From Spirogloea muscicola (Eukaryota > Streptophyta > Zygnematophyceae > Spirogloeales > Spirogloeaceae): a stretch of 24,265 nt of DNA. The first letter of the stretch is position 1. Every line of letters begins with the position of its first letter. The notes under the pieces were generated by a model, which was given only the letters and a program-made list of their open reading frames with translations, did not search any database and was not told the origin of the DNA. Location of the stretch: NCBI GenBank assembly GCA_009602725.1, contig WELB01000003.1, positions 231,419 through 255,683 on the forward strand, in the 5' to 3' direction. Below are positions 1 through 22,028 of this stretch, piece after piece. Both the position numbers and the translations under genes were made by a program.

Positions 1-335
1 CCACGAGTGAGCAACATCAGGTCTGAGTAGCTCGCTGCAGGGAAAGAGGCACTCCGCCGAGACCCAGAGGCGGCGGCCATAGCACGGCCTGCGCGCGTGT
101 GGACGGCGTGGGCAAGGGAGCGTTGAAGCGATACGGCCAGGCGCATGCGGAAGACTTGTGCGAGCGAACCGGCGGCGTTGAAGCCGGGCATCGCCCCTGG
201 CAGACCCGGCCGCCGGTCAATGGCCTGGCGGGCAAGCCGCTGAATGAGATCCTGCCAACGGCAGATGCAACGCGTGAGGGAGGGACTTCCGACCACATCG
301 ACATGGCCGTACCCACCTGGCTGGTAGCTAGTAGC
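1..335 (-). CDS. Partial copy A of an unrecognised repeated protein family (SDLxLLTRGY family)
   Basis: An open frame on the minus strand runs from just after an in-frame TGA (338-336) to the window edge, 111 codons, with its end cut off in the middle of the terminal TRG(Y) motif. It was found by comparison with the frame at 19777-20088 (+). From PGFNAAGSLAQVFRMRLAVS onward the two proteins agree at about 50 of 63 positions by hand count and end in SDLMLLTRG and SDLHLLTRGY. Many codons for identical residues differ (for example CGT versus AGA for the Arg of TRG), which suggests selection on the peptide. No ATG lies near the 5' side of the frame, so this is a 3' exon or a gene fragment. The segment is rich in Arg, Ala and Ser, with no recognised domain and no clear membrane segment. 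Function is unknown. A mobile-element origin is possible because the family is repeated. Confidence 0.5.
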
Positions 336-344
336 TCAAGAGCT

Positions 345-410
345 TGTCGATTGCCGTCCGGTATTCGGGCATCAGTTAGCGACCTCTATGTGCTGACTCG
401 TGGTTACTGA
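345..410 (+). repeat. Copy B: short C-terminal remnant of the SDLxLLTRGY family
   Basis: The plus-strand frame ending at TGA 408-410 finishes in PSGIRASVSDLYVLTRGY, matching the last 10 residues of copies A and C (SDLMLLTRG and SDLHLLTRGY) and, weakly, about 10 residues before them. After the motif, copies B and C also share the bases GGTTACTGAG. The rest of the 99-410 open frame does not match the family and is mostly the opposite strand of copy A. Copies A and B therefore point away from each other, and their ends form an imperfect inverted repeat of about 23 bp (1-24 against 379-402). B looks like a truncated copy rather than a working gene. Confidence 0.45.
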
Positions 411-715
411 GTGGGTCAGCTTAGCAGCAGGCGATGTACATTTGTCAATGTGCTTGCCGTTGTACTTGGCCACATAGGCCCTTCATCTCTTGATAAACAC
501 GCATTCACCAGTACTTCCGCCCGGGCCGCCTGAGAGCCGCGCCGCGCCCGCCGCCGCAGCCGCCGAGGCCGCGAGCATGGCCCGGGGCTGGACGCCGCGG
601 CGGCGGCGTCGGCGGCTCACTCCGGCATGGTGTCCGTGAACCAGCGCCTGGCCCTCCCGCGAGCTGCACCGGCAGCCGTTGTGGCAGACGCGGGAGGCCG
701 CTCCGTGCAACCCTG
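411..715. other. Upstream region and GC-rich start island of the ABHD17-like gene
   Basis: This stretch is moderately AT-rich to about 510 and then becomes very GC-rich up to the start codon at 716, as seen at the other gene starts here. It should hold the promoter and 5' UTR. No TATA box or other specific motif could be assigned. The open frames in the GC-rich half are composition artefacts and match nothing recognised. Confidence 0.5.
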
Positions 716-8200: not shown

Positions 8201-11200
8201 GGGCAAGTTGCACAACCTCTTGTTATCTACTTATAAGTACATGTAAGCAAATCAGCTCCACGGCACCTGTAACCACTAAATCATGTGGTTTAATCAAACA
8301 CACTTTTGACAAGATGTGGCTGTGGAACACCATACCAGATTCTGCAAGCATGCCAATCTGCTGCAACGAGTCCTGAGAAACTTGAGCACTGAAGAGGAGG
8401 CAACGGGTTATGTTGGAGCCGCCACATTACTCTCAGGCCTGTACAACATGATGACAAAATTTTGCTGGTTCCAAGATAGTTTGGTAGGATGTCTTTTCCT
8501 TCCTTGCCTGTCTTTGAGCCGGACTTCTTATGTTTTGACGCATGCTGCAATGACGTACAACCTTCTGTTCGGCTGAGCATAACAAATCCCCGTGCACTTT
8601 CCAAGACAAGCAGCTGTTTCTCATGACAGTCAATTCATATCCCCGCAGGGTAGCACATATTCTGTTTTATTGCAACTGTTCATGGCCACCATGCAGCCAA
8701 TGCTGACTTACCTTCATGCATGGCTCTACAAAGGCGTGTTGCTAGATATAGGCAATGAGGTAAGTGAGTGGACAGAGCATATGAATGTTCCAAAATGCAT
8801 GAGCACAACTGCTTACTGTGTTGGAATTGTCGTCAACAAGTAACACAAGCTCCTCAATATCAGTTTCTTATAAAGTGCAAAGCAGAGGTCAATGCCTCTG
8901 AAGCACCAATCTCATGGTGGCGAAGCCATTCATTGCGCAAGCATGAGGAAGACAGGCCTGGAGTGGCGAGCAGCTCAATATCATCTGATACAAAGTATGA
9001 GAGCATCTCACAGACAACTTCTGTATCTGTTATTGCGAAGCACCTCACCACAGATATCAAGACATGGAGCATGGCATCTATCAATATGCATAGATTACTA
9101 CCAATTTGATCTCCTTGCTACCTGCCAACTTCCACTCACCTGCAAATTTGGACATTGATTGAGTGCGCTTGAGCTCTGGACAATAACACTCCTGGTATAT
9201 GCAGGTCCAGTGGCAGGGAGATGATATCTGGTGATGAATGTTTGATACTTAATGACGTTGAGGATGAAGATGATAAGGTCCTCTGCCCGTCCTTCTTGAA
9301 GCCCTATGCTCAGAAAATCCTATACAGTGGGACCTCACTGAGATTTTTGCAAGAAGTCAGGAGGACATGTCCACAAGACACTCAGATGAGCATGCCAGTA
9401 TCATGTGCAGCAAACTTGTTGCACGCCACAGCTGGAGCTATTGGTGATCCAGAGCTTCCTAAGATGACTCAGGAAGGCTCGTTAAGGACCATTCCCTCAA
9501 GACCAGAAGAACCTGTAGATGCGAAGGAGGTCTCAGTATGTTGTCAATTAACTATGGAGTCAGAAAACGACAATATGCTTCTCAGGGACTTTTGCAGCAC
9601 ACTACAGGAACTTACTGAACAAAGCCAGTCTGATTCAAGGAATTTTGAGACCTTCACAACTGGGCATCAAGACAACATATCTGACTATCACGACATTGCA
9701 GTCTGTGAAGTCGACACTAGCAAAAGGCTACCATCACAACATCCTGACTTGTTGCCCCAAACATCATTCACAAGTCCTGGGCCAGGCAGCCTGTCATCAA
9801 CGCCCCCAGTAAGCAACTATCAAGAGCTGATCAATAGGAGCTTGTGAGATATGGCCCTATTGCGGGGCGTATTTACTCTTCGTCTAAGATGGCTGTTGTC
9901 ATGCATCAGGTGGCTATGGGGAAAGCTGCAGAGCAAGTGCTGGTGGCTCACTGTGAGAAATTTCAGCTGCCTGCTCTGCTATTGGAGAAAGCGTTGCTTA
10001 GAAATCTGAGATCTCAGGTAATAGAGCTACTTGTCGATTTTGGCACTGGATATATTTGGAATTCGTAGCTTGGAGGTTGGGGTGCTGCACCAGGTCTACC
10101 TGGCCTAATATGTCTGTCATCCGACAGATGTGTGTCATTGAGCAGAGGCTATTATCATGCTTCATGAAGGACTGGCGGCTCTGTGAAGAGCTCTCTCTTT
10201 TGCGCAGCCTATATCTGTTACCTTCTGGTAAGAAGATATCTTATCTGTTACCAGCTGTAGGAAGTATCTACATCAAGTAGAGCACAACGATCCTGGATAT
10301 CCAATTGATGGGGTTACAAATCTGCATAGCAGTATCACACGCCATGCCGCGTGCATCACTTCATCTGCTAGTATTGGACTGCCTATGTAGCGCATGAAAT
10401 AAGCAAGGTACTGTGCAAAATGCTTGGAGAGGAATGTCCAAAAAGGTGTAAATAGGCTGCATTGTTGGTTGTGGTCCTTCAGGTGACCTCCTCCAGACGT
10501 TTACTGAGAACTTGTTCATCAGACTGGATATGGAGCAAGCCTGGGATGATGACTGCGAACTCAATGCATTGCTGCAGGTGGTCTATGGCCCAGATCGTAC
10601 AATGATGGTCATGTCTCTTCAGCAATTGCTGAGGACTTGGCTGTTCCTGATGTTATTGCGTACTTAGCATAAGGGTGATAATATGCTGTCCAAAGTACGA
10701 CATCTCATGCTGTCAACATTGACACATGCACAAGCAGTGTTGCTCTCTGTGGAGATTTGCATGTACAGATATGAATGTTTATCAGCATGTTCTACACACA
10801 CTGACGTGGAAGGTTGCACAGCACAGATTGACCTTAACATTAGGGTGTGCTGAGAAGGTACTTGCAGGACTCCATTCGTGAAATCCATGATACAGGCTTA
10901 AACACAGTGACAGTGACTGTTGCAAGTCTAAAGACAACCACAATTTCAAGACAAACAACTCCCATCAATATTGACGCACTTGACCACATACGCCTTTCTT
11001 ATAAGGTTGCCCCTTCGTCACCTCCTTTTCAGGACACGAGCCACTCATAGATAACACAAAGCAGGAGGTGGGACTTAAGTTAGATTCTAGGCAAGCAGGA
11101 GTAGATGCATCTGCCATTCAGTCTTCCATACCAATACTGCCTTGTGCGCTGAGGGTCAGAACATTGGAAGCTAGGGTTGAGAATCTGCTCACCTGCTTGA

Positions 11201-13204: not shown

Positions 13205-15309
13205 TCAGCCAAACAAGGGGAGGCCGACCTTGACGAAGGAGTAGACTAAGGCACCAGTGAAGATGTAACTATCTACACGGTCCAGGATGCCACCGTGCCC
13301 AGGAATGAGCTGACCTGAGTCCTTCACACCGGCATCGCGCTTCAGCATGGACTCAGTCAGGTCCCCAAAGAGGGATGCCATAAAGACTAGGACACCGAGA
13401 GTGGCAGAGCTGCACAAATTTCGCCAGCACAGCTGTGTTAGGCAGCAGACCATGCAACGCTCTTGAAGCAAATGTATCCTATGGAGTCACTACGGACACT
13501 CCAAATTCACCATCCAAAGTGTCAGGAGAAGCTGGCATTGCCCAAACCTAAAGATGGAAGAGGGCCATTGGAAGAGCTTCGAGAGGCCGACAGCTACTCC
13601 AACAGCGCCCAGGAGGCCAGCTGCACATTGGAGTATGCAAGTTGTGAGGTGCCAAAGGCATGCGGCATTCAACATGTGAAAACCGCAAGCAGCGTTCCTT
13701 GTCATTGATAATCTTCAGGCATCGAGTGCCGGAGAAGCGGGTGGCAAGCTTGCAGCTTGTAGTGAGACGCACCTAAGGCACCCTCCCGGGTTTTCTTGGG
13801 ACTAATGTCTATGAGGGGCGTGCGGCCAAACGTCTTTCCGCCGAGGTAAGCCCCCGTGTCGGCAGCAATGATGGTCGAGAATGCCACAAAGGTGGCCACA
13901 AGCCCAACAGTCCACTCGCTTGTTGCTGCCCGGGGCAGCGGCCACGAGGACAAGAATGCCGGCTCCGGCAGGGGGCCGAAGTTGGGCAAGCTGCACCGCA
14001 GCTTGATCCAGAATGTTGGCAGGTATCCGCAATAGAAGAGCCCAAAGAGCGCACTTGTGAATTGGCCTTTCCGTGGCCGTGTGGGCTGCAAGAGGAGAGG
14101 AGCATGAAACTCTGTCAGGAAGTATATTATCTGTGAGTCAAGTCGCAGGCCATCTTGCTGGCCGGAATGCTGCCGCCGCTTGACTGGGGCGCCCATGCCC
14201 CAATCATAGCATATTGACCTGCAGTCCTGATTGAGGGCTTTCACTTGCAGCCCTGCAATGCTCCTTGAAACTGTGATGCAGATAGCACGGCTGAAAAGCC
14301 TCATTGTCCCTAAACCCTAAAAACTAAATCCTACACCCTAAAGGTGTGGGGCATCACCTGAATGAGCAGGACAGCCGCGACGAGGCAGGTGGCAGTGACT
14401 ACGCCGTAGATGATGTGCCCCCCAAAGTAGTACGTCATGACCGGCAGAGCCGTGCACATCAAGGTGCATGCCTGCGAAGGCACCATCTACTCAGTTAGTC
14501 GGGAGCAGAAAAATGATCAGCTCCATGTTGATTGAGTAGAAGTTGTCCTCTCATTTGAAGGCTACGTGTGCAGAAAGACAGTTTGCGATTACCAAATGCT
14601 TGTGCAGAGCTACAGCACTTAGACAGGGCGTGGAGTGGCAGAGACCATTGTGGCGATTGGGGGGGCCGGGGTCCAGCCCCTGGCCAAGGCCTTGGCGTGC
14701 GCCAGCCCGAAGTACTCCCGGGTCCCCTGCATTCCGGGACGGACACGCGGCAGCTGTAGAGCTTCTACCCGGACTCTGGCTCCTCATGGAGCCCGCGAAT
14801 GTGCAGCCTGCCACGCTTCAGCAACGCATTACTGCCTATATTTAACAAGGGCTCACCAGAATGCCCATCATAGCCAAGCAGGCGGTGAAGACCCAGCCGC
14901 CAGCGACAATGCTGGAGATGGCCATGGCGCCAATGAGGGTGCCAAAGACGACGCGATTGAGTAGGGAGCCCCAGCGGCTCCGCCCGCCGGCGGCCCTGTG
15001 GGAGGCCTTGCCAGCAGCGACAGCAGCGGCAGAAGCCGCGGAGGTCGACGCGGTGGCCGGGCGAGGGCAGGGGCTGCCGTCGTGCGCTTGCCCCGTGGCC
15101 GCGCACGCCGTCGCTGCGCGCCGCGAGGCGCGCCTGGGAAGGTGCCGCCGCAGCGCAGCTCGCCGGCAGCGGTCAGCATCGCATGCTGCGACAAGCGGGG
15201 CAGAGTTGGGGCGCGCCCATTGCCAGGGCTGCTGGAGGCGGCTGCAGTGCGACGCCACGATGCTGTGCGCATCGCAGAAAGAGCGCGCGGCTAACGGACG
15301 TCTGCACAA
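13205..15309 (-). CDS. CDS4/5: CDP-diacylglycerol synthase (phosphatidate cytidylyltransferase), plastid type; 5' end unresolved
   Basis: Exons on the minus strand are about 15309-14857, 14726-14646, 14471-14358, 14085-13773, 13620-13548 and 13409-13205, joined in phase. The enzyme makes CDP-diacylglycerol from phosphatidate and CTP, the branch point to phosphatidylglycerol and phosphatidylinositol. The family signature is intact: [13 protein letters not shown] followed by [14 protein letters not shown]. Upstream lie [28 protein letters not shown] and hydrophobic spans such as [20 protein letters not shown]. The sequence resembles bacterial CdsA and plant plastid CDS4/CDS5 more than the ER enzymes, and the Arg/Ala/Ser-rich N terminus suits a plastid transit peptide. 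Odd point: the exon-1 frame is open upstream to a TGA near 15450 without any ATG, so translation begins in an unseen upstream exon, at a non-ATG codon, or the GC-rich sequence holds an indel. 15309 is a TTG, used only as a boundary. Confidence 0.9.
14308..14342. repeat. Short interstitial telomere-like repeat (CCCTAAA type)
   Basis: Two perfect units CCCTAAACCCTAAA (14308-14321) are followed by degenerate units and another CCCTAAA ending at 14342. This is the plant and green-algal telomere repeat (TTTAGGG on the other strand). It lies inside the third intron of the CDP-DAG synthase gene, with minus-strand exons on both sides, so this is not a chromosome end. It may be a scar of break repair by telomerase or by telomeric DNA capture. 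Confidence 0.75.
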
Positions 15310-16420: not shown

Positions 16421-17520
16421 GCTTGTGTGCTCGCTCAGGGAGTGACTTCGGCCACAGGACAAATGCGAGAGCAGCCACCGAGGTGCCTGAAGGAACTTAC
16501 TCAGCTCAGTCCACTCCTGAAGTTAACAGTAATACCTTGCCTGAGGCCCATAAGCCAGGTCAAGACGCCTAGCACCAGGTGCAGGCTTGACCACGCGAAG
16601 ACGCGAACACTCATGCGGAATGGGGGATGGGAGGATAGGAGGGGTGTAGCATATTGGGTTACCTTGCAACGGGCATCCTACAAAGTGAGCATGACCATGT
16701 TGAGTAGTGCGTGCACTGATGGAAGCACAAGTCCACTGCTAGGTGGCTAGTGTATATCTCCGCTCTCTTTTACCTTGACCATTCTTGACCAAATTCTCCA
16801 CAGCTGCAGGCCTCTGGCAACCTCTCCACAGCTCGTGGAGTTGCCGTGCTGCTAAGCAGCCTCTGACAGCGGTTGCAGCACCAAGATACCTCCTCTGCAT
16901 GCCGTTCTGCAGGGGAAAGTATTAGCAACCACGCTAGCCACTGTGCCGGGGTAATCATGGCTATGTGACCAAGACTTTGCATGGTCGACAGCACGTCCTG
17001 GCTCGTTGTGGTACCATGCAGTCACTTGAGTGGAGGCAAGAATCTGAGAAGATGCTGTCGTGAGCAACGAGGAGGTAGCATCTGAAAGTTGCGCAGCAGC
17101 GCGGCATGGCACCAACCTGCAGGCCAGTCGCATGTCAAGCGGAGCTGGAAGCAATTGATCACTGGCTGCATGCCTCCAACTCCAGCAGTAACTTTTGGAG
17201 ACAAGAGCGGTAGGATGCTTTCCCGTTTGAGCAATGCAAAATAGGGTTGTTATTATCTGGTCATTACCTGGGCACATTGCCTGCCTCGGTGATTGACTGC
17301 TATTGGCACTGCCAGCACAACAAAGTCGTGGTGGCAGTCTGACCTGCACACCTGTAGGACACTTGTCATACATGCTGGCGTGCCCAATGTGGTCACTGTG
17401 ATACAGTTGTGCAAGTCGAAGTCATTGGATGCGGCTTCTGCATTTTGAGCAGCTTCGATTTCCAGTGCCTCCTTTCGAAGGACATGAGAAATATGCACCC
17501 AATGCATACTCCTCATACAA
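16421..17520. other. Stretch without a recognised gene; weak coding-like frames on the minus strand
   Basis: The first few hundred bases are probably RPAC2 3' UTR. On the minus strand, 17373-16852 is open for 173 codons from an ATG, and an overlapping frame (17516-17253) contains KEALEIEAAQNAEAASNDFD, which reads like real protein. The two frames overlap, so at most one is right at each point. No domain was recognised and no convincing exon chain could be built. This could be a minus-strand gene downstream of the segment at 17526-17888, a degraded gene, or noise. Confidence 0.3.
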
Positions 17521-18062: not shown

Positions 18063-19776
18063 ACAACACTTGACTTGGGCCTTAGCTTCAATGTCAACAT
18101 GCAAGCCTCTATTGTCCTGATTGAGCTGCTCTTGTCAGTCTGCATCGACCTTTGTTTGCCACGCTTTGATCACAGGCCTAAGGACCTGAACGAGGTCTTC
18201 AAGGATGCACCATGTCGGTGCTGGACTTTAGCGGCCCCTCTTTCAGGTACTGCCCTCCGAGGCGGGACAGGCCTGCATGAATAGTTCAAGGCGCACGAAG
18301 GGCAACCGTCACTGTGACTTCCCCGCATGTACATCCCCGAAGCAATGAGACGTGCTGGATGCGGCCACAACTGAGAGAACATAAGACAAAACCCGTGGGT
18401 CAGGGTTGGGTAACGCTTTGCCCAGTAGAAGCGGCGGTATTAGTGGCTATTTTAAGAGCCAGCCATTGTGGACAGGAAGCTGTAGTTCCTGTTCCACTTC
18501 TTCGTCTGGCTGACGAGGGGATACTAAGCGGCCCCTCCTAGGCCGAGCTTCAGTAATGTGGAATATACCACCCACGAAATCCATGTACACAGTTCGGCTG
18601 GCCTTCAAAGCCGTCATTGTGCTACCAGCGAGAGCAGTCTCACTTGGGCGCAGTGGCTCTCTTAGAGTGGCAGCTCAGAAGATTCATGGATTATGGTGAT
18701 GGCGGAAGGCGCCACTGGTTGAGACGAGGCCCATTCAGCTTGGTCAGCTGCTCCATTACAACGCCCTCAGCAGCTCCGTGCAGCATTGGGCAGAGAGAAG
18801 GTGTTATATTCCCTTAATTTGGTCCGAAGAAAATTGTGCTGGTAGTGCTACATGACCGTATATGTAGGTGTCAGCAAATTAAGCTAGGAAGCTTTTCTAG
18901 GGGGCAATTGCTGTGAAGGCCGGTCCGATAATGGTGGGCATCGAGCCGCCACAAGCCTCGTGACGCTCGTGCCCCGTCCATCGTATGGTCCACTTGGTCT
19001 ACGATGGCGTGTCGGGGGGGCAGCTTGCGGCATACCAGCATGCTGCAGGCGTGAATTGCGAGTCACAGAAGCTTCTTTTGCTCCATTTGCGGCCCTTCCT
19101 TGGCACTGGCCATCTATTAGCATGCAGGGCCAGCACTAAGTGACGCCACTAGCATCTGTGGCGGTGCTCCGGCTCCCCATGAATCCTGTCAAATCTGTAT
19201 GTGCAACACTCTTTAGTCTAGAAAGCCCTTACAGGTTACCTTAGCCCCTCTAAGCCAAGGTCTTCACTTTGTGCAGCCCCATGCTTACCTTCTTTGCACT
19301 AGTATCTCGCCTGATCAAATTACTGGCTCGACTTGGCCTCCATCTCCTAATACAGGACTGGCCCCTCACAGCCGTTGCCTTCCTTGAATGAGTTTTTCTA
19401 TCTCAGCAAATTGTTAAAAAATAGCTGCATCTTCTCGTCTTTCAAGCCCACCACAGGCCATTCTGGGCCTGCGGACCTCGGGATTAATGGGTGAAGCCTG
19501 AGAGAGAGGCGCAGCCCGGCCCCATTGTCACCGCAACAGTCGCCGCAGCTCCTGCCAGCTCGCAGCTTGGAGTCCGTGCCTGCCTCCCTCTGGGAACACT
19601 TGCTAGCTGGTGCCAAAAGGTGACGGCAGCCCCATAGGCGAGTCTACTGCTGCGCTGATGTTCAAGGGCGAGTGCGACTTCGTCTCTGAAAGTAAACATT
19701 GCTCAGCTCAGCTCTCGTCCACACTTTTCTCCCAGGCCGACATCTCGAATGACTGAACCTTGTCCATTCCTTTTGA
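18063..19776. other. Gene-free stretch, no feature recognised
   Basis: Short open frames on both strands (for example 18048-18284 plus, 18617-18817 plus and 18884-19123 minus) show no motif and no plausible exon chain. A peptide EVFKDAP near 18195 recalls DVFKDAL of RPAC2 but the flanks do not match. The region is probably intergenic sequence with degraded repeats. Confidence 0.5.
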
Positions 19777-20088
19777 GCTGGCCTTTCAGACATTGCCCCT
19801 TTAGAGGTAGCTTCTTCTTGCCACTGCCTCTCACGGGCCTTTGGTCGTTCCTTCTTGCGGCCACCCTCAGCCACTGTCCCCTTGGCCGAGCAGCCTGGCT
19901 TCCATGTCGCCGGGTCCCTCGCCCAAGTCTTCCGGATGCGCCTGGCCGTCTCATTGCAGCGGTCCCTAGCTTTTGCGGTCCACTTGCGCGCAGGCCGCGC
20001 TCTGGCGGCGGCCTCCGGCTTCCGTCAGGGCGACGTCTTTCCGCCTGCTAGCCATTCAGATTTGCATCTACTGACGAGAGGTTACTGA
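19777..20088 (+). CDS. Copy C of the SDLxLLTRGY repeated protein family, complete 3' end
   Basis: The frame is open from just after a TGA (19774-19776) to a TGA at 20086-20088, 103 codons. From EQPGFHVAGSLAQVFRMRLA it matches copy A closely and ends SASHSDLHLLTRGY-like with PPASHSDLHLLTRGY. Similarity to copy A is weaker but visible upstream (SRAFGRSLLRPPS against QRLARQAIDRRPG). There is no ATG before the conserved part except a TTG-type codon, so it is probably a last exon or a fragment. Composition is Leu/Arg/Ala/Ser-rich. No known domain was recognised. It is followed by the inverted-repeat structure at 20129-20412 and stands alone in a gene-poor stretch, which suits a dispersed, perhaps mobile, sequence. 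Confidence 0.5.
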   Translation, partial: AGLSDIAPLEVASSCHCLSRAFGRSFLRPPSATVPLAEQPGFHVAGSLAQVFRMRLAVSLQRSLAFAVHLRAGRALAAASGFRQGDVFPPASHSDLHLLTRGY

Positions 20089-20128
20089 GAGTTCGCATAC
20101 TGCTGTCTCAGTCCTTAGCACTCCGGCT

Positions 20129-20412
20129 CCTTCAGACCTTGTCCATTCATTTTTTGGGCTGGCCTCTCCCAGCCACTAGTTAATCTGGCCGCGCTTGCGT
20201 TTTTTTCCCCTTGGAGGAGCTCCACCTCTCGTCCACCCATACTCTCTTGAACAGCCATCGTCAGTCTTTCGGCAAGGACCTCCCGCACGGCCAGTCGGAT
20301 AGGAAGTGGCTCTTCCAAGAAAATGTGAGCTCTCACATTTTCTTGGAAGAGCTCCTCCAAACAGGGGCGAAGGATGCGAACGCCAGCCCGAAAGGACTGG
20401 ACAAGGCTGAAG
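20129..20412. repeat. Nested inverted repeat: outer diverged arms around a perfect palindrome
   Basis: An outer element containing CTTCAGACCTTGTCCATTC (20129-20175) recurs in reverse orientation near 20372-20412 (reverse complement reads CTTCAGCCTTGTCCAGTCC and then GGGCTGGC). A diverged third copy lies in direct orientation at about 19755-19792. Between the outer arms sits the perfect palindrome at 20309-20352. The arrangement recalls a foldback or MITE-like element. No target-site duplication was established. Confidence 0.5.
20309..20352. repeat. Perfect 21-bp inverted repeat with 2-nt spacer
   Basis: The left arm starts GCTCTTCCAAGAAAATGTGA (20309-20329) and the right arm is its exact reverse complement (20332-20352), separated by CT. 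Such an arm length without mismatch is unlikely by chance and implies recent origin or selection. It could form a cruciform or a tight RNA hairpin. Confidence 0.9.
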
Positions 20413-21117: not shown

Positions 21118-21194
21118 AAGCGCCGTCAGCCGCCGCCACCCCATTGCGCCGCCGCCACCTCGCCCCCCCCTCTGCAGTCCACGCNTCGCGCGCC

Positions 21195-22028
21195 ATGGCC
21201 GTGGGCGTGTCGCAGCTGCCGCCGGCGTCCGAGGACAGCCCGCCGCGCGAGGGCCCCCCGTGGCTGTCCGCGCTGCTGCGTGCGGACTTCTTCGTGCCGT
21301 GCGCGGCGCACGCGGCGACGCACAAGAGCGAGCGCAACTTCTTCTGCGTGCAGTGCGCGCCCAGCGCCGGCGCGCTGTGCCAGGCCTGCGTGGCGCGGCA
21401 GCACGCTGGCCACGCCGCGCTCCAGATCCGCCGCTCCTCGTACCACGACGTCGTGCGCGTGGCCGACATCGGGCGGCACCTCGACCTGGCCGCCATCCAG
21501 GTGTACGTGATCAACAGCGCCAAGATCGTGTTCCTCAACGGCCGGCCCCAGAAGCACCCCGTCAAGGGCGCGCCCTACGCCTGCGAGAGCTGCCGCCGCA
21601 CGCTCCTCGACGCCTGCCGCTTCTGCTCCCTCGGCTGCAAGCTCGCTGCATTGGCGCGCCCCGACGGCGGCGGCGACCACCTCAGCATGCAGCCGCGGCC
21701 CGGCGGCAAGGCCGGCGGTGGCGGCAGCAGCGGCGGTGACGGCGTTGCCAGACACAGCCACGGCCACGGCCACGCCCGGCACTTGGAGGAGCCGGAGGTC
21801 AGCTCCGGCGGGGGCTTCTGGGCGCCGCCCTCGCCGTCGTCAAAGCGGCGGCGGATGACGCCCAGCAAGCTCCTGGACATGGTGCCGCTGCCCCCGCTGC
21901 TGGAAGCTGCATCTGCGCCCAGCAGTCCTGTCCTCCACCCCTGCACGCCCACGCAGAGCGACAGCCTGGAGCATTCGTGGAGGTTACACCGCCGCAAGGG
22001 CGTCCCACACCGGGCACCATTGGTCTGA
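21195..22028 (+). CDS. PLATZ-family zinc-dependent DNA-binding transcription factor, single exon
   Basis: An uninterrupted 277-residue frame begins at an ATG just after an ambiguous base (n at 21185). PLATZ proteins bind A/T-rich DNA and repress or activate transcription in the nucleus. They are characteristic of the green lineage. The opening PPWLSALLRADFFVPC matches the family. The first zinc motif is C36-x2-H39-x11-C51-x2-C54-x7-C62-x2-C65-x4-H70-x2-H73, and the second is C130-x2-C133-x10-C144-x3-C148. Between them are IRRSSYHDVVRVADI and VYVINSAKIVFLNGRPQ. The linker has a His/Gly-rich patch (HSHGHGHARH), a basic KRRR cluster likely to serve in nuclear import, and several Ser-Pro or Thr-Pro sites. 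The end RRKGVPHRAPLV is the conserved PLATZ tail. The upstream ACGT-core cluster is its likely control region. Confidence 0.95.
   Translation: MAVGVSQLPPASEDSPPREGPPWLSALLRADFFVPCAAHAATHKSERNFFCVQCAPSAGALCQACVARQHAGHAALQIRRSSYHDVVRVADIGRHLDLAAIQVYVINSAKIVFLNGRPQKHPVKGAPYACESCRRTLLDACRFCSLGCKLAALARPDGGGDHLSMQPRPGGKAGGGGSSGGDGVARHSHGHGHARHLEEPEVSSGGGFWAPPSPSSKRRRMTPSKLLDMVPLPPLLEAASAPSSPVLHPCTPTQSDSLEHSWRLHRRKGVPHRAPLV

Follow-up and report, generated by a model that had tools for sequence, protein, structure and literature searches.

The question raised by this locus is what is encoded by two frames that lie in the window, the whole stretch of 24,265 nucleotides analysed here, and that share the peptide ending SDLxLLTRGY. 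A sequence-only reading had proposed that the minus-strand frame at 1-335 (copy A) and the plus-strand frame at 19777-20088 (copy B) belong to an unrecognised multicopy protein family, perhaps part of a mobile element. Its hand count of 79 percent identity was upheld by BLASTP, which aligned the two frames with 49 of 62 residues identical (79%), 53 of 62 positive, zero gaps and an E value of 2e-22. The local score was 228, against a mean of 30.5 and a maximum of 59 for 1,000 shuffled versions of copy B. The silent differences that had been pointed out are also real, as the NG86 method gave a dN of 0.165 and a dS of 1.97 over 62 codons (ratio, 0.084), although with dS near saturation the direction of dN/dS alone is safe. 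The peptide was therefore under selection, as had been supposed (dN/dS of about 0.08 between copies A and B); the selected units are the source genes, on which past selection acted, and the window copies are truncated. Both frames translate as described, but the homology is shorter: in copy A it covers window positions 1 to about 262, and in copy B it begins at about 19888 and extends to the stop that ends at 20088. In particular, copy A resembles its relatives from about residue 25 of the previously described frame onward, and its last residues and stop are not visible because the window is preceded by an assembly gap, with N at at least 2,000 positions.

The genome to which the window belongs (471 contigs, 153 Mb in total) was searched in six frames. 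Each tail returned at least 150 matches, since all 150 candidates scored were matches for copy A (of 16,764 first-look candidates) as well as for copy B (of 17,230); these counts are lower bounds, and candidates left unscored were not counted as copies. The suspected high copy number was thus confirmed, and so was the suspected link to a mobile element, as the tail constitutes the end of LINE protein frames that contain a reverse transcriptase (RT). In family A, three uninterrupted frames of 1406 (L040), 1418 (L041) and 1393 (L042) amino acids each end in the tail, while the 1521-amino-acid frame of L060, in family B, ends in the copy B version of it. At the protein level, L042 and L060 agree at 71% of some 1010 aligned residues. 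Over window 1-262 (or 1-252), the DNA of copy A is 98 to 100% identical to other genomic copies, and its translation matches residues 1306-1391 of L042 with 90.7% identity; for copy B, 66 residues align with residues 1456-1521 of L060 at 95.5% identity. Given these shared tails, copies A and B are 3′ ends that come from two families of the same type of element. The first 37 or so residues of the originally described copy B frame are partly translated 3′-UTR-like sequence of another copy (19754-19785), which matches the 3′ untranslated region (UTR) of L042 at 84% (E value of 0.002) and, over 19757-19782, that of L060 at 92% (E value of 1.9e-4). The features of the window and the motifs of the full-length proteins are collected in the table.

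Table. Features of the window and motifs of the family A (L042) and family B (L060) proteins. Window positions are in nucleotides, and the end of the family E fragment is approximate; residue positions follow the numbering of the frame and are not counted from the start codon.
Feature	Sequence	Position	Strand	Remarks
Copy A, 5′-truncated 3′ end of a family A LINE	Window	1..262	-	C-terminal tail of the protein with RT and putative RLE
Family E, 5′-truncated 3′ end	Window	325..~505	+	SDLYVLTRGY, stop ending at 410, then 3′ UTR
Family 3′ UTR fragment	Window	19754..19785	+	A short distance upstream of copy B
Copy B, 5′-truncated coding 3′ end of a family B LINE	Window	19888..20088	+	With stop
Copy B 3′ UTR	Window	20089..20196	+	DNA match to L060 over 19887-20196, 76%
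Hairpin-like GGGCTGGCCTCTCCCAGCC	Window	20156-20174	+	Within copy B 3′ UTR, read from the sequence
Possible further 3′ UTR fragment (weak)	Window	20379..20404	-	91% over 23 nt to L060 3′ UTR, E value of 0.008
Finger-like CxxC...H...C motifs, two each	L042; L060	From 175, 353; from 355, 478		Pattern only
YADD	L042; L060	827; 956
Cys/His knuckle CX1CX12HX3C	L042; L060	1163; 1291		Invariant in families A and B
RADLVA, then D after 14 residues (RADX14D)	L042; L060	1232; 1360
KEKKY or KELKY (KX2KY)	L042; L060	1279; 1407
AFGxxW (GX2W)	L042; L060	1302; 1430

The three full-length family A copies have a common 3′ UTR and a common 5′ end, with the first in-frame ATG 82 nt inside the latter and the stop 4159 nt from the 5′ end; an intact element measures about 4.3 kb and carries a single long frame. 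Across the 4180 nt compared, L040 equals L042, and L041 differs from each of them at 2 positions, which suggests that the family moved recently. At the protein level, RVT_1 (PF00078) scored above the Pfam cut-off in L042, L040 and L060, and the ends of the three full-length copies revealed no long terminal repeats, as is expected of a non-LTR retrotransposon. Two further Pfam matches stayed below the cut-off, namely, a SUZ12-like zinc domain in the first finger region of L060 (0.029) and an HCR match (0.23). The only NCBIfam match, a group II intron RT model, was far below its cut-off, and none of the 90 and 86 pattern-matching stretches of IMG/VR viral contigs was confirmed as a relative. A single full-length protein found no match in the PDB at an E value of ≤1. 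A profile of families A and B (four sequences) against 177,635 distinct PDB sequences returned only two matches at an E value of ≤10, and both were R2 retrotransposon proteins, aligned over the RT (E values of 3.7e-5 and 4.9e-5). One alignment showed the L029 row visibly out of register, and this row was dropped from the next version.

The order of YADD, knuckle, RADX14D, KX2KY and GX2W is alike in families A and B, and ADX14D and KX2KY were found, as motifs, in families A, B and C. The tail starts near GX2W and extends for some 86 residues to the end of the protein. In RLE LINEs, according to the available text of PMC5678591, a knuckle of the form CX2-3CX7-8HX4C precedes the endonuclease, the K that opens KX2KY serves as catalytic lysine and a GXW motif sits just past the endonuclease fold; the present proteins show this order too. 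Because a profile of the C-terminal 240 columns (four sequences) gave no PDB match at an E value of ≤10, the assignment of this region relies on motifs and their order, which point to a putative RLE domain, that is, a C-terminal endonuclease of the probable PD-(D/E)XK type with the lysine of KX2KY. We are confident that copies A and B are dead, 5′-truncated insertions of an RLE-type non-LTR retrotransposon (LINE).

Among RLE-bearing elements, the Dualen/RandI LINEs of chlorophyte algae merited consideration, since they too occur in green hosts, as does the element described here. These elements have both an AP-endonuclease and an RLE (PMC4640811, in the part available), and the accessible text of PMC8226300 reports Dualen LINEs in all the species that it compares. 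The present families might then be Dualen elements whose AP-endonuclease was lost or has diverged too far to be detected. Against this, Pfam found neither an AP-endonuclease nor an RNase H, the domains that accompany the RLE in Dualen/RandI, in L042 and L040 at an E value of ≤1 or in L060 and a 1013-amino-acid part of L042 at an E value of ≤10; moreover, the 82 nt between the common 5′ end and the first ATG of three family A copies leave no room for an upstream frame. We thus consider a Dualen origin improbable and the element an RLE-type LINE without an AP-endonuclease.

The view that the tail represents an independent small-protein family of the host, ending in SDLxLLTRGY and unrelated to transposition, draws on the peptide being strongly conserved at many sites and on the tail alone having no Pfam match (E value of ≤1), which is also why no domain had been recognised in it. 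In the genome, however, the tail is continuous with the RT frames of L040-L042, L043, L046, L051, L060 and others, and the copies start at varying points of one long frame and run into a shared type of 3′ UTR. Such a family is therefore very improbable. The same clear match to a known kind of transposon removes the designation of the tail as an unrecognised protein family, as it constitutes the C-terminal end of a LINE protein with a Pfam-supported RT and RLE motifs. Equally improbable is a MITE or other DNA transposon with inverted ends that would span window 1-410 and encode ...LTRGY on both sides, because, although window 1-30 resembles the inverse of about 367-410, among the scored copies 1-262 occurs without 325-505 and vice versa, so that the two segments belong to different families and are arranged tail to tail.

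The segment that begins at 325 had been noted as a short third copy of the peptide. It is indeed present on the plus strand at about 325-505, and its coding part ends in SDLYVLTRGY followed by a stop, but it is a member of another repeat family, family E. A search with it found at least 39 other places where a match with 90 to 96% identity sets in at about position 325 (40 scored of 2,291 first-look candidates), besides 6 weaker second matches, and 12 fetched copies were aligned. Related endings of other families in the fetched loci were SLSDLRLLSRGY, SLSDVRLLTRNY, SSSDFLLLTRGY and SVSDLYVLTRGY, the last being that of the third copy at 325-~505. As a separate observation, the family E 3′ ends (L061-L072 and window 325-505) share an upstream coding stretch, ..LQRAQAHALHQKAGRALAGSSR.., which is related to the family A tail.

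The preferred reading, truncated insertions of an RLE-type LINE, also accounts for the pattern of selection. By analogy with published R2 elements, the element protein would nick the target DNA by means of its RLE, target-primed reverse transcription would copy the element RNA into the nick, starting at the 3′ end of the RNA, and the template would be recognised through the 3′ UTR. Copying would often stop early and leave a 3′ end composed of the code for the C-terminal tail and the 3′ UTR. Two circumstances make the tail resemble a conserved family: it forms part of a functional enzyme in the source elements, and truncation spares it. For the L042 frame compared with that of L060, dN/dS was 0.12 in the RT, 0.14 in the knuckle and RLE, 0.21 in the tail, 0.22 in the linker and 0.19 in the counted N-terminal part. 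In family A copies free of gaps (29 distinct ones of ≥200 nt and ≥92% identity; 7 copies with indels left out), sites differing from the window copy fell on third (91), second (42) and first (18) codon positions, and the altered codons comprised 86 silent changes, 62 replacements and 2 stops. This excess of third positions is consistent with selected source genes followed by decay of dead copies. The 3′ UTR hairpin keeps at least 5 of its 7 pairs in 6 of 7 aligned sequences, and family E is without it. A two-sided change occurred in only 1 of the 7 pairs and one of four single sequences folded better than its shuffled versions; we do not claim covariation.

The loci around the copies are mosaics of truncated 3′ ends from several families in both orientations, and many copies in the loci read retain their 3′ parts alone. 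Target duplications of 5 to 8 bp, which differ in sequence, were recognised by eye at five of the seven nested sites read and were unclear at the other two; the full-length copies L040-L042 showed none that was clear. The 5′ truncation and the short target duplications are as in LINEs. Flanking sequence differed among all three full-length copies, and no fixed insertion site was apparent in the flanks read (nested sites, and the full-length copies compared with one another). In the young A subfamily, a family fragment lay within 100 bp of the 5′ end in six of seven copies (L043 had none by the references used), and four of the seven had more than a trace of family sequence no further than 100 bp from the 3′ end. 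As a control, small and uneven, we used 1-kb stretches (12 fetched, 4 of them N and 8 readable), where a fragment lay within 100 bp on either side at 32 of 128 points, all 32 from two of the eight readable stretches; in the window, the figure was 28 of 474 points. Family sequence covered 1338 of 8000 bases in the control and 755 of 24,263 in the window. Family cover of the flanks was 35% over 28 of the 30 loci, with L010, which is the window copy, and L013, which repeats L006, set aside; this figure includes the bodies of long focal copies and does not count as evidence. Apart from it, the data suggest that the copies cluster near their own kind; a preference for landing at their own copies is not proven.

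Compared with known LINEs, the element is closest in layout to R2. One long frame with N-terminal fingers, RT, knuckle and RLE is seen in R2 proteins (R2Tg, PDB 9dou; R2 protein, PDB 9nl3) and appears alike here, KX2KY is common to both, and the RT profile match noted above links them. The same R2 architecture, with N-terminal fingers, a central RT, a Cys/His knuckle and an RLE, is described in the accessible parts of PMC6895275 and PMC5678591. Differences lie in the knuckle (CX2-3CX7-8HX4C in R2-type elements versus CX1CX12HX3C here), in PD versus AD and in GXW versus GX2W, and no Myb domain was among the Pfam matches of L040, L042 and L060. Members of the R2 clade integrate into the 28S rRNA gene at one fixed position, and elements of the Utopia/NeSL type target U2 snRNA or other small RNA genes. 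By contrast, the different flanks of the full-length copies speak against a fixed 28S site here. HERO and NeSL/Utopia carry fingers, RT, a finger and an RLE in one protein, as here, a likeness drawn from descriptions. As far as the available text of PMC4640811 goes, the RLE groups besides Dualen are CRE, R2, R4, NeSL and HERO, mostly known for fixed targets; HERO includes many non-specific families, and reports of Utopia come from Amoebozoa, SAR and Opisthokonta and not from green lineages. Chlorophyte algae carry Dualen and L1-group Zepp-like elements, and Zepp and Zepp-like elements of Chlorella, Coccomyxa and Chlamydomonas form LINE clusters in green genomes, as seen here (PMC8226300, in the part available). 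Zepp-like elements are L1-group LINEs according to the same partial source, whereas the solved relatives of the present protein are R2 proteins. We classify the element no further than as a probable RLE-type LINE, whose relation to R2 is suggested by the PDB profile match. It is a known kind of element, a LINE, and is counted here as an addition to the RLE group.

The host setting bears on what this means. The genome yielded eight RuBisCO small-subunit matches, corresponding to four two-exon loci, and the best PDB matches of the rbcS exon tested were chains annotated as small subunit 1A, chloroplastic (120.6 bits), with 1gk8, from Chlamydomonas, at 88 bits. The rbcS of this genome thus looks plant-like, probably of the streptophyte type. 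We put forward only tentatively, leaning somewhat against it, that a recently active lineage of RLE-only LINEs, comprising several families, has spread in a plant-like green genome of the streptophyte type, with no fixed target and with a tendency to insert into or next to its own copies, whereby clusters of truncated 3′ ends accumulate. If true, RLE-only LINEs would extend into the green lineage, from which the partly available sources report Dualen LINEs, with AP-endonuclease and RLE, and L1-type LINEs. Among the best-ranked titles and abstract openings of a literature search, with Repbase and most subscription journals outside it, we recognised none on RLE-only LINEs of green algae or plants, so that the evidence for their absence is weak. 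Should the host be a streptophyte alga, the RLE LINEs would gain an example from the green lineage that is apparently not site-specific, with very recent movement suggested by how nearly identical its full-length copies are. More generally, a conserved peptide with silent-site variation and no recognisable domain can be the leftover end of a LINE protein, which explains the puzzle posed by the two frames.

Several side observations concern other elements and genes. Two of eight PF00078 loci of the genome were read (L052 and L053); a second LINE as a control was not among these two, which look the same as each other and, by eye, like Ty3/gypsy elements with regions for protease, RT and integrase, and several further places in the genome have frames of the same length, 1237 amino acids. 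In the window, an Rfam search gave zero matches, and six of the ten frames tested had no Pfam match at an E value of ≤0.01. Below-cut-off matches were a gamma-tubulin complex N-terminal domain at 9221-9847 (plus; E value of 1.9e-4) and DUF2985 at 16852-17373 (minus; E value of 0.0021). The frame at 679-1050 had no Pfam match, and the region at about 716-1021 and from 1286 on (plus) presumably encodes an ABHD17-like alpha/beta-hydrolase split by an intron, as judged by eye. A cytidylyltransferase family domain (PF01148; E value of 3.7e-17) lies at 13702-14304 on the minus strand, and a PLATZ transcription factor domain (PF04640; E value of 1.3e-26) at 21144-22028 on the plus strand, in a frame about 1 kb downstream of the 3′ UTR of copy B.
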